DNA of 64,000 bases. It comes from Gonapodya prolifera JEL478 (taxonomy: Eukaryota > Monoblepharomycota > Monoblepharidomycetes > Monoblepharidales > Gonapodyaceae). The first letter of the stretch is position 1. Every line of letters starts with the position of its first letter. Both the position numbers and the translations under genes were made by a program. Of the stretch, positions 42,836-49,310 are shown piece after piece. Below the pieces are notes generated by a model that saw nothing but the letters and a program-made list of their open reading frames with translations, made no database searches and was not told the origin of the DNA. Location: assembly GCA_001574975.1 (NCBI GenBank), contig KQ965775.1, forward strand, positions 67,205 to 131,204. The letters run 5' to 3'.

Positions 42836-45800
42836 ATGCCCCCGCAGTCGCAGTGTCTGGGGCGGCTGGTCATTGTCACGACGGGCATGTCGCTGGAGGA
42901 CCGCGTGAGTGGCGCTGGGGATGCGAATCCCGCGCATGTGGAAGGAATCAGCTGCCTCCACCTCCAACTCAACCCCTTCCCCCCTCCTCCCACCGCCCAA
43001 CCACCACACCCCGATCCGATGCACTGCGGAAACGGAAAAAAAGAACGTTCTCGCCCACCGCATCGTCCAGCTCGGCGGTGCATGCCCCGCAAGCTTCACC
43101 CGAGAGTGCACGCACTTACTCGCGACCTCCTACGGGTCGGACAAGTTCTACGTGAGTCCTCCCTCTCACTCTTTCTGGATTTTCGTGGAGTCTCGGACTC
43201 GCACCGACCTCACTGCGCTACCCCCGGCACCAAACAGGCCGCTGCACGTCTTGGTATCCCAATCGTGTCGCCGGACTGGATCGCATACTGCTGGAATAAG
43301 AGGTTCGAGGATGGGTTTGGGAAGAAGGAGGTGAGTTCTCGGGAGGCTGCGAGGGCTGGAGTGCGAAGCACGCAAGACCGAGCCCCGCGAGCAGAGCGAG
43401 ACCCGAGACCTAGGTGGGATAGCGCCGACCGAGGGCACGAGCGTAGCGAGTGTGTCCGCCGGAGACGAGTTCCTCGCGAATGGTACCGCGCGGGGGTGCA
43501 TATTCCCACCGGAGTCAAATTCACCCCGAATTCAAAGATGAATACTCTCGCAGAGCTCAGCGAAGAATGTACCGCACAGAGCGCGAATAGAGACTGAGCA
43601 GTCCGCCGGAGGGGAGTGATCGACGCGAAGCGGAATGTTCTTATCGGAGCAAGATCCTACTGGTGGCGAGTGATCCACGCGGAGCGAGGAATATCCCACG
43701 CAGGGCGTTTAAGGGGATGCAGACACAAATGCCTCGACAAGACCGCGTCAGATGGCCGAGATGGTGGAGGACCTCATTCCTTGATTCAGATCTCACCGCC
43801 TCCAACCCCCCCCCCCCCCCCCGGGACATTCGACACTCGTCACAGGCCCTCGCCCTCGCCGACGAGCACAAGCGGCCCATATTCGCTGACTGTGTCGTGT
43901 GTACGACAAATGTCGCCGGAGGTATGTATCGTTCGTCTACCGCGGCATGTAGGGACTGCACAGAGTTGACCTTCGCTCTTCCACCCCCCTTTTCCCGAAC
44001 ACAAAACATAGCCCCACACACCCGCATTTCGACCCTGGTCCCACTCCACGGCGGCTCATTCACGCGGGACTTGCATGCGCGGGTGACGCATTTGGTCGTC
44101 GGCTCCTCTACTTCCACCTCCACTTCGGCTTCTACCTCCGGGTCCGGGTCGAGCACTGGCGGTGGGGCGGGCGGGGCTGGAGGTGCTGAGGGAGGAGGAG
44201 GAGGAGGAGGACCAGAAAAAGTGTCGAAAAAACTCAAGGCCGCGCTCGAATGGGGCACAATCGAAGTGGTCAGGGAGAGGTGGTTTTGGGATTGTGTTGA
44301 TTGTGGGGGTGAGTGTTTTGGGGTGGGAGAGTGGGCGGNNNNNNNNNNNNNGCGAAGAGGTGCAAAGCGGGATGGGAGGAATCGGAGAGTGAAATTGGTG
44401 GAAAGCAGGACGTGAGGAATCTGATCGTACCGCGTGGAACGGTCTCCACAGGACCAGCGCTGGTTGTGTACTGCGCTCCTTATCCTTGTCCTCCGTTTCA
44501 CGCTCCCACCCGCACCCCCACCTCGACATTCCGTCGCACACCACAGCACTGCTCAGTCCGGCAAAGTACCGCGTCGACTCAGACTCCTCTTCCACTCCTC
44601 CAGCTGTCGGGGATGTGGAGGGACCGGATGGGACGAGTACGGCGGGGGAGGGTGATTTAGGTACGAGCGCTTGTGTTGTGGTGCGAATGTGCTGTCTGTG
44701 ACTGACCTTGTCCCTTGGCTTAACATCTCACGCGGGATTGGTGTCCACATCACCCCACCACCACCGCACTCAGCAACACACATCCCCGCCACGAACGACC
44801 TCTCCCCTCACCCACCCCTCACAACCGCAACGACCACGACCTCGGCCACAGCATCCCACCCTTCCCGCCGCCTCACCGCGCTCCTCCCCACACGGTCCCA
44901 ACCTACAGCCATCCCATCGTCGCACCCCTCACCCTCCACTGCGACCGCCACCTCGACCTCCTCGGCATCTCTCCTCTCCAAACTCGAATCCTTGCTCTCC
45001 CACTCTACCACCGCATCCTCCTTAAACCCCCTTTCCGCTTCCGGCTCCCCCCCACTCTCCTCCTTTGCACTCTCATTCTCGCCTTCATTCACGTCCGCCC
45101 AAACCGCCGTCATGCGCCGCGCTGTGCGGCATTTGGGAGGGACGACAAGGGAGGAGGTGTCGACCGAAGTGACGCACTACATCGTGCCCCCCACCGCCGC
45201 CAAGAAGTTCCCCGACGTGGACGTGGAGGAACTCAAACGGGGCCTGGGCGGGATGCGCGCGCTGCCGGTGGTGGTATCGTACGCGTGGCTTGTGGAGCTT
45301 CTGGAGGACCCGCAGGGGGATGTGGGGGTGGAGGCGTTTGTGGTGCACATGCCCGAATCGGTGTTCCCCCCCGCCTCCACCACACCGGCCGTTCCGCCAC
45401 CTCCGGCACGGTCGCTTCCCGTGCAAGGGTCGGGAGAAGGGCAAGGGCAGTGGCAGGTCAGGCTCAAACGCGCCCCCACCTCGACCGCGGACGCCCTGCG
45501 TGAGATGCGTGCGGCGTTTGCGGGCGTGGACGTGGACGCGCCCCCGCCGTCTAATTCCACCGCCACATCCGGGGGTGCAGTGTCGGGGTCGGGGAGGAGC
45601 TGGGTCCCAAGGCGAAAGACGCTGACGATGGAAGCACGCACGACTTCGCCGCCCAAGGAGCAGGAGCAGCGAGAAAGGGAAATGGAACCGGTGGGGTGGG
45701 CGCCGATGCAGGCTGATGCAGAGTGGAGCGGGTTGGGTGTGGTGGAGAGGTCGTTGACGGAGTTGGAGCCCTGGCCGCCTCTTTCGGAGCCCCTCGTCGA

Positions 45801-48800
45801 AGCGACCGCGACAGGTCCCGATCCCGACGTCGCACCTAGATCAGACCTGTTCATGGGCATGATCTTCGCGAGTACGGGGCTGCCAGCTGACGCGCTCGAC
45901 TCGGCGCGGTTTTTGGTGCGATCTCGTGGTGGGGTTTGGCGCGATTTGCCTCCCGTGGGTGGAGGTGACTGGTGGAATGTTGTGAGCGTGACAGGGTAAG
46001 TTTTTTTCCGGGTGTGGGAGGATGTGGGCTTGGGGTCCCTAGGTTGAGTTGAGTCTAACTTCCGACGAACCCACCCACGTGCACAGAGCCGCCGCCCTGC
46101 TCAGAACACCCGGAGAGATCGCCGTGACGGACGTGTGGCTCACCCGGTGTACAATCGAGAACAAGCTATTCGAGCCCAGCGAGTGTGGCGCGTGGACGCC
46201 TGTTTCAGTGTCGGGTGCGCAGAGTGTGGGTGAGTTGAGTCTGGGGTGTAGGGTAGGGTTGCGTTGTGATTGTGATTGTGTGCTCACTAGTTTGCGCTTT
46301 GCCGTGGGTGGTGCGGTTGGACTGGGTATAAAGAGTGGAAACGGTGCCGCATCGGTGTGACCAATCTGGATGAGTTGGATCGAGAGGAAATTGGCAAGAT
46401 CGTGGCGGGATTCGGTGAGTGTGGTGTTTGTGTACTACGATGGCGTATCCTCGCGACAGCTCTGAACCCGCCGCGCACCTCTCGCGCCCCAGGCGCGCGT
46501 TATACCGAAAACTTCACCCGCCGCAACACTCACCTGATCGCCGCTACCCTTTCCGAACCGTATGGTGCCGAATACTCCAGGAAGCGCGAGATGGCGCAGA
46601 AGTGGGGTGTGCCCATCGTCTCACGGCAGTGGTTATTCGAGTCCTGTCGAGCTGGAAGGCCGCTGGACGTGCAGGCGTATAGGTTACCTGACCAATTGCC
46701 CCAGGAAACGGACACGGTTGGGCAGGAGGGACAGAGTGAGCGGCCCAATATAGAGCACATTGGGGGAGGAGCTGCAGGTGTCCTGGATACAAGAGGAATC
46801 AAGCGAGTATTGGAGAGTCCTGCGAAGCTTGACGGTGGTGGTGGTGGTGTCGGCGTTGGTGCAGCTGTGAATCCGCCTGGTGAGCCCCCATTTCGAACAG
46901 TCCACCCCACATGTTTGTCACAAGGTGTAACCCCTACCATCCGAGCAGCAACACCGCTTCCCGAAGTCTTGTCGCGGAACCTGGCCCGTGCTGGTGGGAG
47001 GTTCGCCAACCCACCTGCAAACCCACCCGATTTTCGAGTTGCGCAAGCGCACCCTCCTTCAACACCTGAGGCGCGACTGCCCCCATCGCAAATGAATCGC
47101 GTCAGAGTGTTTTTGGCGCATAAGACGACGGTGGGTGGACGTTCCTGTTAGATGAAAATCAATGGCCCGATGTTGACAAACGTAATGAACAGGAAAACAA
47201 CCGGGATAAGCTGACCGGTCTCGTGACTGACATGGGCGCTGAAGTTGTCTCCAATCTCTCTGATGCAACGCACGCGGTATTTGGACGCACGCGTGGGGTG
47301 GAAGCAACGCAGGACTTTGTGGCTGCGATGAGGAGGCGGTTGAATATCGTGTCAGAGTACTGGCTGGTCAAGGTAAGTTTCTTTTGGAGTACTGCAGACG
47401 TGGTATGCTTTGTCTTGACGACGCCCGTTTCAGTCGCGAGAACTCGGGACGTGGCAGCCCGAAGCGAAGTTTCCCCACATGTGCGACCCTGCGCCGGTGT
47501 CTGCTGCAGAGCTTAGCAATCCGGGTTCGGCCGCTCCTCTAGGAGAGGTTCCATCCAGTCGCGCAGATTCAGGCAACAGTACGAACGTAGCAACTGCCGT
47601 CGAAGTACCTCCTCCTCCTCCCTCGGCTGCCTCCACCAGCTCCGCCCTACCCCCCACAACCTCAGCTTCCGTTGCCCCTCCTGTACCACCACCACGCCGA
47701 ACCCGCATGGATATCGCCGCCGAGCGCCGGGAAGCCATCAACGCAAAAGTCCTGGACCTGATCGCCGACATGCCCGCGATACCTGCCCGTGTCAAGCGCC
47801 GGCGCATGGACGAACCTACCACCGACGCATCGGCCTTCGTCCCACCCCAACCTCCCCCGGGCCACGTGTTCCCCCGAGACTCCGAAATTGCTGATCTGCC
47901 TCCTGGGTCTCCGCCAAGAATAAAGCCGATTCCCAAACTTGAGATCCCCACCGTGACGTGGCATGACCCGGAGATAAAGAACATTAAAAAGAGGCTGATG
48001 GATATGGTGTCAGGAGGGACGGCTGACAAGCGAGCGAAGGCGGACCCGGCTTCTGCGTCTCGTACCGGGGAGGCCGGCGCCGGGGGGAAAGGCAAGGAGC
48101 CAGCCATGGAAGGTGCAGGTCCCGCGGCCGGGCGTGCACCAGAACCGTCGTGGATCTCCGTGTCGCGAGATTCGGTCTCGAACGTGTCCACCAAATCTGG
48201 CCCGCTCACTCCCCCCGACCCCATCTCCGCAAACACCGACAAGAAGCGGTCAGCCACGGGCCCGGAGGAACGACAGGGGCTGAAACTGTTGGCGTCGTAC
48301 TCCACCGCGTCGGATATCACGCCGGGTGGTGACGCTGGAACCATGCGACGACACGGCCGTCCTGTCGCGCGCCCAGGAGCAACCACCACCAACTCTGCCT
48401 CCCTCACCACCGTCACGACAACATCTGGCCCGTCATCCGTAACCCCACCCTCCAATCGATCTCCCCCCAAATTCCTCTTCAGCGCCGTGGACAATGCGTC
48501 TCGACCCCGTTTCAAGGCCGTGCTTGAACGGTGCGGTGCTCTGGTGTACGATACCAACGCCGGGTGGAAGCCGGATCTGACGCACCTCGTTGTGGGCAAA
48601 GTGGCGCCTACAACGGATAAGTTGCTTGCGGCTGTGGCGGCGGGCGCGTGGTGAGTCGGGTTTGTGGGCCCCGTGACGAAAGGTGGAAAGAAGTGCTGAT
48701 AAGGTGGTGTTGCAGGGTTCTCAAACCGTCCTACATTGATGCATGCTCAAGGGCGAATTCTCTGGTGCCTGAAGAACCGCACGAATGGCCCCCAGAATCC

Positions 48801-49310
48801 TCACGTGAGTGGTGTTGCACTAGTACCCCTCTCTCGTTAACCCCGATATAATGCCATTGCAAACAGCCGGTACCGTACTGGGCTACGCCCGTCACTGGCG
48901 TACCACACTCTCCCCTCACCTGCACATTGGCCCAGGACCCCGGCCTGGCGCGTTCTCGGCCGTTCGTGCGTATTTGGTCGCTGGAGAGATGACGCGAGTC
49001 AATGTGGTGAGGGTTCTGAAGACGGGTGGCGTTACGCAGATGGAGATTGGAAAGGCGCCGTTCAAGATTGCGGATAAGGTATGTTGTTGGGCGGTACCTT
49101 TTGTTGGCTGTTTGTGTGCATAACTCCCGCAAACCCGCACTATAACTTTAGTCTGCCTTCACACACGTATTGGTCGACCTTAATGTGCGCAAGAGTTCGA
49201 ACTCGGAGTGGAAGGTTCTTTTAAAGAGTGGAGTACCGTGCTACGAACTGCAGGCGTTTCTGACAGCGGTTCTGACGGGAGGGGATGGAGAGGGTGCCAA
49301 GTTACGGTGA
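42836..49310 (+). CDS. TOPBP1: TopBP1/Dpb11/Rad4 homologue with eight BRCT domains
   Basis: Checkpoint and replication scaffold. Fifteen exons (42836–42904, 43044–43151, 43238–43330, 43846–43921, 44012–44308, 44547–44660, 44774–45995, 46054–46229, 46334–46414, 46493–47130, 47193–47372, 47434–48650, 48716–48804, 48867–49078, 49152–49310) keep frame throughout: 1576 residues. BRCT cores in order: LVIVTTG...DWIAYCW; FADCVVCTT...RWFWDCV; MRRAVRHLGG...YAWLVELL; MIFASTG...DVWLTRCTI; RCRIGVTNL...RQWLFESC; RVRVFLAHK...EYWLVK; KFLFSAVD...PSYIDAC; HLHIGPG...CYELQAFL. The 2-1-2-1-2 spacing matches animal TopBP1 BRCT1–8, whereas yeast Dpb11/Rad4 have four. Between the sixth and seventh BRCT is TVTWHDPEIKN (Trp codon 47959–47961), like the WDDP motif of the ATR-activating domain. 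The 13-N gap lies in an intron. Confidence 0.92.
43331..43845 (+). other. Unusually long intron 3 of the TopBP1-like gene
   Basis: 515 bp against 50–240 bp for the gene's other introns. It holds a pair of imperfect direct repeats (gagtgatcgacgcgaagcgg at about 43615 and gagtgatccacgcggagcga at about 43669) and a C homopolymer of about 18 (43806–43822), and is very CpG-rich. It looks like an expanded intron or a small insertion; no coding content is recognised. Confidence 0.5.

Follow-up and report, generated by a model that had tools for sequence, protein, structure and literature searches.

Among the described members of the TopBP1 family, the yeast proteins Rad4/Cut5 and Dpb11 serve as lean models of TopBP1; they have four BRCT domains, and their activation motif lies in the C-terminal tail (PMC8651625, PMC3386226). 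In the account of a recent review, the animal protein corresponds to this yeast plan with an inserted BRCT3 and added BRCT6-8 (PMC8651625). Here we describe a fungal gene at positions 42836-49310 on the plus strand of the window, by which we mean the whole stretch of 64,000 nucleotides that was analysed (G000:C45:67205-131204, within a searched genome assembly of 47.6 Mb in 207 contigs). The gene is an additional member of the known TopBP1 family, and we consider it highly probable that it encodes the TopBP1 orthologue of a flagellate, zoosporic fungus, a protein that follows the animal plan except that BRCT0 was not found, carries a candidate ATR-activation domain and functions like TOPBP1.

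Eight BRCT cores in the order 2-1-2-1-2, as the initial annotation had read them, are supported by Pfam for six domains and by tandem alignments and shuffle tests for BRCT4 and BRCT8:

42836-43330, plus strand: BRCT1, residues 1-90; Pfam PTCB-BRCT 9.9e-15; aligned to BRCT1 of Rad4 and TOPBP1
43858-44575, plus strand: BRCT2, about residues 95-224; Pfam BRCT 1.8e-11; with a low-complexity insert
45049-45366, plus strand: BRCT3, about residues 345-450; Pfam BRCT 6.8e-5; score reached by 0 of 20,000 shuffles
45832-46222, plus strand: BRCT4, about residues 606-705; tandem alignment with TOPBP1 BRCT4,5; 0 of 20,000 shuffles
46223-46689, plus strand: BRCT5, about residues 706-800; Pfam PTCB-BRCT 5e-15
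47059-47490, plus strand: BRCT6, about residues 901-1003; Pfam PTCB-BRCT 2.9e-5; PDB match to human TOPBP1 BRCT6
48460-48804, plus strand: BRCT7, about residues 1327-1418; Pfam BRCT 2.6e-8; match to TOPBP1 BRCT7,8
48867-49310, plus strand: BRCT8, core at about residues 1447-1542; tandem alignment with TOPBP1 BRCT7,8; 0 of 20,000 shuffles

Comparison with PDB chains places these modules individually. Residues 7-150 matched BRCT1,2 of Rad4 (3e-20) and of TOPBP1 (1.9e-17), and the second and third tandem pairs matched TOPBP1 BRCT4,5 (E 2.9e-10 to 2.4e-9) and TOPBP1 BRCT7,8 (E 2.2e-13). The best matches of BRCT6 were human TOPBP1 BRCT6 (3jve and 3pd7, E 5e-6; next best 3e-4), with which it shares the ending PE..[FY]PH. 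For BRCT3, the shuffle test was run against the part of 8ok2_E that precedes BRCT4,5, which we ourselves assigned as BRCT3; a phmmer search of BRCT3 against that part alone was not significant. The TopBP1 pieces in the shuffle tests of BRCT3, BRCT4 and BRCT8 came from previously printed alignments, which biases these tests towards good scores.

Two results count against the eight-domain layout. Firstly, the general Pfam BRCT model scored only six stretches, namely BRCT1, 2, 3, 5, 6 and 7, and BRCT4 and BRCT8 of the window copy gave no Pfam match when searched separately; if Pfam alone is counted, the total falls below the seven hits that the initial annotation had named as its own lower limit. 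Secondly, the search with BRCT4,5 ranked BRCT1,2 of Rad4 first, via BRCT5, and not TOPBP1 BRCT4,5. Among the matches listed for this pair, only chains of TOPBP1 BRCT4,5 align over both domains. Overall, the PDB matches run in the order of TOPBP1, which supports a protein collinear with animal TOPBP1, including BRCT3, BRCT6 and BRCT7,8. BRCT0 was not found within the 1.5 kb upstream of the window gene or the 1.0 kb upstream of its second copy, a search that did not extend to exons farther off; between the two upstream regions only short stretches match, the longest at the ATG itself.

The gene is intact and consists of 16 exons encoding 1542 residues:

42836-42904, 43044-43151, 43238-43330, 43846-43921, 44012-44308 and 44547-44660, plus strand: TopBP1 exons 1 to 6, in frame
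44774-45995, 46087-46229, 46334-46414, 46493-46879 and 46949-47130, plus strand: TopBP1 exons 7 to 11, in frame
47193-47372, 47434-48650, 48716-48804, 48867-49078 and 49152-49310, plus strand: TopBP1 exons 12 to 16, in frame
46880-46948, plus strand: overlooked intron of 69 nucleotides, inside exon 10 of the initial annotation

The initial annotation had proposed fifteen in-frame exons, which do join through GT-AG introns and yield 1565 residues, but its exon 10 holds the intron at 46880-46948, so that the number rises to 16. This intron is frame-neutral in the window and is revealed by a second full TopBP1 copy (copy B, the window gene being copy A), which occupies the places on contig C71 that were first listed by a BRCT search of the genome. 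Copy B is intact, with 1552 residues and without internal stops, and the former exon 10 cannot be a single exon because copy B would then lose its frame; with introns of 69 nucleotides here and 71 nucleotides in copy B, both copies read in frame without internal stops. In the alignment of the copies each exon has homologous splice sites, among which a single GC donor occurs in copy B. Residue numbers given here refer to the 16-exon protein, in which the motif tryptophan (codon at 47959) is residue 1160; in the 15-exon version it is W1183.

One feature of the assembly weighs against a single continuous gene, namely a run of 13 Ns at 44339-44351, inside intron 5. It lies between exons 5 and 6 and separates BRCT1-2 from BRCT3-8, as would suit an artefact in which a pair of adjacent BRCT genes was taken for one, or two separate contigs were fused at this point. 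Exon 6, however, completes BRCT2 in the right phase (ALLSPAKY here, AVLEPQY in Rad4), and copy B shows the same order and junctions. The join across the Ns is probably sound, because copy B is free of Ns in the 9 kb fetched and its exon order is identical, and we regard the artefact as largely refuted and its residual probability as minimal.

Beyond their order, the domains of the single gene thus delimited retain residues expected of phosphate-binding pockets in both copies. These are threonine and lysine in BRCT1; threonine, lysine and the BRCT2-type tryptophan in BRCT2; lysine, the only residue checked, in BRCT5; and serine and lysine in BRCT7. The threonine and serine positions, as well as the lysines of BRCT5 and BRCT7, are the ones that we take to be pocket residues. 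The lysines of BRCT1 and BRCT2 and the tryptophan marking BRCT2 follow published criteria (PMC6175577). By sequence, the protein shows hallmarks of the TopBP1/Rad4/Dpb11 family, with pockets in both domains of BRCT1,2, the BRCT2 tryptophan, and a pocket in the second domain of BRCT4,5. It likewise shows several of those of animal-type TOPBP1, with a single BRCT3 between the pairs, a single BRCT6 followed by a linker, and a C-terminal BRCT7,8 with a BRCT7 pocket.

The proposed layout reads BRCT1,2 - 3 - 4,5 - 6 - candidate ATR-activation domain - 7,8. Phosphate-binding BRCT1, 2, 5 and 7 would dock the protein on phosphorylated partners, for example the 9-1-1 clamp and replication-initiation factors, and a helix together with a Trp-x-Asp-Pro-helix peptide in the linker between BRCT6 and BRCT7 would bind and activate ATR-ATRIP. 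It is this partner binding and ATR activation, together with the evolutionary direction discussed below, that we infer, whereas the gene structure, the homology and order of the domains, the pocket residues, the constraint on the Trp block between the copies and the presence of an ATR-type kinase are observed. The linker elements in question are the following:

47893-48018, plus strand: Trp block, candidate ATR-activation core, residues 1138-1179, with W1160 in TVTWHDPEIKNIKKRL
47704-47775, plus strand: linker helix element, residues 1075-1098, a predicted helix with the run ERREAINAKVLDLIADMP invariant in both copies

The motif TVTWHDPEIKNIKKRL lies where the initial annotation had placed it, at a position matching that of the 15-residue human TOPBP1 core. 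The human activation peptide of 26 residues is present in PDB chains 9zd1_I and 23fd_G. A gap-free comparison of the fungal VTWHDPEIKNIKKRL with the 15-residue core finds W, DP and RL in both. Anchored on the tryptophan, this match scores 32, the best value of all 28 tryptophans in the protein (next 10), and is reached by 96 of 200,000 linker shuffles over 15 residues and by 199 of 200,000 over 20 residues.

The comparison of the two copies adds a record of selection. Over the 42 codons of the Trp block (DLPPG...MVSGG) there are 10 synonymous and 0 replacement changes, all 42 residues being kept, and a Fisher test of the block against the remaining linker gives p 0.007; the other tryptophan of the linker (PEPSW) is glycine in copy B. 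The ratio of nonsynonymous to synonymous divergence between copies (omega) stands at 0.23 in the part of the linker that precedes the helix element and at 0.34 behind the Trp block. A single-sequence AlphaFold2 model of the exon 13 product alone (exon 12 of the initial annotation) predicts two helices between BRCT6 and BRCT7. The first spans exon-product residues 91-111 (protein 1075-1095) and overlaps the ERREAINAKVLDLIADMP run, with a predicted local distance difference test (pLDDT) of 77-82 for this element; the second spans residues 179-193 and begins right after WHDP (Trp = 176). The helix element may possibly be the coiled-coil half of an ATR-activation domain, to judge from the model and from its distance to the tryptophan, which at 77 residues equals the human spacing. 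The arrangement of tryptophan and helix fits, because the activation domains of TOPBP1 and ETAA1 are described by a critical tryptophan plus a predicted coiled coil (PMC7994790).

Several results weigh against reading the linker as an ATR-activation domain. Without the anchor, the likeness of the Trp element to the human core falls short of significance (313 of 5,000 shuffles), and the helix element (236 of 5,000) and both elements together (85 of 5,000) are at most barely significant. With matches allowed up to E 10, the PDB yielded none for the Trp block or for the 121-residue candidate domain, despite the human activation-domain chains that it contains. For the Fisher test, the boundaries of the block were set post hoc, with the alignment in view, and rounded counts were used; a test of the longest run gives weaker evidence (3,701 of 100,000 shuffles). 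Omega is also low over the helix element (0.08) and between it and the Trp block (0.09), so that the block is no sharp island. As to the helix element, its placement ranked only second of 120, a plain alignment matched the human helix to the Trp block and not to the helix element, and the AlphaFold2 model is of low quality on the whole (mean pLDDT of 46.7); this placement is suggestive only.

These points leave room for an alternative, in which the gene is an eight-BRCT orthologue whose linker peptide is kept for another reason, such as nuclear import or a different partner, so that its WxDP likeness arose by chance and ATR is activated by another protein. In budding yeast, Ddc1 (Rad9) or Dna2 can activate the ATR kinase (PMC3738440). 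The lack of database-level similarity and the unanchored test favour this alternative, as does the presence of basic residues in the conserved run. Yet it would have to accommodate the position between BRCT6 and BRCT7, the highest anchored score among the tryptophans, the loss of the second linker tryptophan and the helix predicted directly behind WHDP, and we therefore consider it unlikely. The likeness to the ATR-activation core asserted by the initial annotation thus holds in the anchored match, the conservation between copies and the predicted helix, but not in unanchored similarity or in the PDB search. On sequence similarity alone the Trp motif is doubtful; since the PDB search was empty, the claim of an activation domain rests on position, anchored similarity, selection and the predicted helix, by which the motif as a candidate ATR-activation core is moderately supported.

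A kinase that such a domain could address is present in the genome. Five FATC kinase tails are encoded, and the one on contig C3 is nearest to ATR among PDB chains (3.3e-7), followed by Mec1 (3.3e-4). A search of the genome for the ETAA1 family gave no match, but its positive control was also silent, so that absence is unproven. Rad9 is found at one locus, G000:C1:239458-243045, on the minus strand; frames downstream of its domain hold an acidic TSDEEDDEE stretch, CK2-type-like, plus SQ sites.

Overall, copies A and B differ by a synonymous divergence (dS) of 0.38 and a nonsynonymous divergence (dN) of 0.07. BRCT8 of copy B gave a sub-threshold match to PF23294 (E 0.08). The C71 locus had been a candidate for a separate four-BRCT Dpb11, which was ruled out when it turned out to be the second full TopBP1 copy; the BRCT loci on contig C16, also candidates for such a protein, gave single-domain matches only (best 3.9e-6).

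Divergence between the copies is uneven along the gene, with dS at 0.06 in BRCT7 and 0.12 in BRCT8 (48460-49310) and at 0.26-0.91 in the other measured regions, as if the BRCT7-BRCT8 end had recently been exchanged between them by gene conversion. The surroundings match as well: positions of about 1700-63500 in the window are collinear in blocks with about 45000-102900 of C71 on the opposite strand, over some 60 kb. Identity varies from 96% at 1701-2933 to 71-73% around 42.8-44.3 kb, with several blocks at 84-87% and unmatched gaps between. For Rad9, IFT46 and the five FATC kinases, whose tails we read as distinct, no second copy was found in the genome. The collinearity would reflect a segmental duplication of some age or else a haplotype block that has diverged strongly. 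Intron 3 of the window gene (515 nucleotides) contains a dispersed repeat at 43380-43790, parts of which match 51 places in the genome, itself included, mostly as pieces of 36-150 bases at 72-97% identity.

As to the host, the genome encodes the intraflagellar-transport protein IFT46, and Fungal_trans, a fungal transcription-factor domain, matches it at 72 places; the host is therefore most likely a flagellate (zoosporic) fungus. Pfam recognized no family in any of 10 other open frames of the window, and a PDB search with one of these frames gave no match. A scan of IMG/VR with residues 1-224 returned 9 pattern matches, none of which (0 of 9) is a relative.

The occurrence of a collinear BRCT3, BRCT6 and BRCT7,8 in a fungus makes loss in yeasts the simpler account, and the animal-type plan probably preceded the split of animals and fungi, as far as one fungal genome can indicate. 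The yeast proteins would have lost BRCT3, BRCT6 and BRCT7,8 from this ancestral plan. With BRCT6 and BRCT7,8 removed, the activation motif would end up as a tail behind the second tandem pair, where Rad4 carries it (PMC3386226). Conversely, the animal plan of this gene might be separate or acquired, with BRCT3, BRCT6 and BRCT7,8 joined to a four-BRCT fungal ancestor either through domain shuffling or through transfer from some animal or other eukaryote. That our evidence comes from one fungal genome leaves room for this, and the review cited at the outset, which sees in the animal plan the yeast plan with additions (PMC8651625), agrees with it. Nevertheless, the protein is collinear over its whole length, the gene is interrupted by 15 introns and has a diverged second copy in collinear surroundings, and the same order of several domains would hardly arise by chance, so that we hold a separate origin to be very improbable.

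Ancestry of the plan followed by loss in yeasts can be taken further. In this wider proposal, to which we give even chances, animals and fungi inherited the full scaffold, its ATR-activation domain inside, from their common ancestor, the four-BRCT yeast proteins are trimmed relics whose tail motif is this formerly internal domain, and the two diverged copies may provide the fungus with two ATR activator versions. If true, the picture of the review is reversed, and the functions of BRCT3, BRCT6 and BRCT7,8 are old ones that were lost in yeasts and not animal inventions. The fungal linker also supplies a candidate activation domain of remote sequence, with nothing but W, DP, RL and a following helix retained, which is of use in interpreting the PDB entries 9zd1 and 23fd of ATR and TopBP1. 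Among the open-access papers listed for TopBP1 or Dpb11 in early-diverging fungi, none treats the TopBP1 layout of these fungi.

Compared with animal TOPBP1, as known from human and mouse PDB structures, the fungal protein is alike in its BRCT order 1,2-3-4,5-6-7,8, in the checked pockets of BRCT1, 2, 5 and 7, and in the Trp-x-Asp-Pro followed by a basic stretch in the BRCT6-BRCT7 linker. Unlike the animal protein, it has no BRCT0 found upstream, carries an insert in BRCT2 and long low-complexity linkers, and is identical to the 15-residue core only at W, DP and RL. Fission yeast Rad4/Cut5 is likewise fungal and is the protein to which BRCT1,2 scores closest (3e-20), whereas in contrast to Rad4 and Dpb11 the protein has BRCT3, 6, 7 and 8 and carries its motif internally. 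Dpb11 of Ustilago maydis is also a fungal TopBP1 homologue, encoded by an essential gene, and its Q846 is reported to correspond to a stop located right behind the fourth BRCT of Dpb11 (PMC4573213). The plant protein MEI1 of Arabidopsis clusters with human TOPBP1 but has five BRCT domains (PMC11014961).

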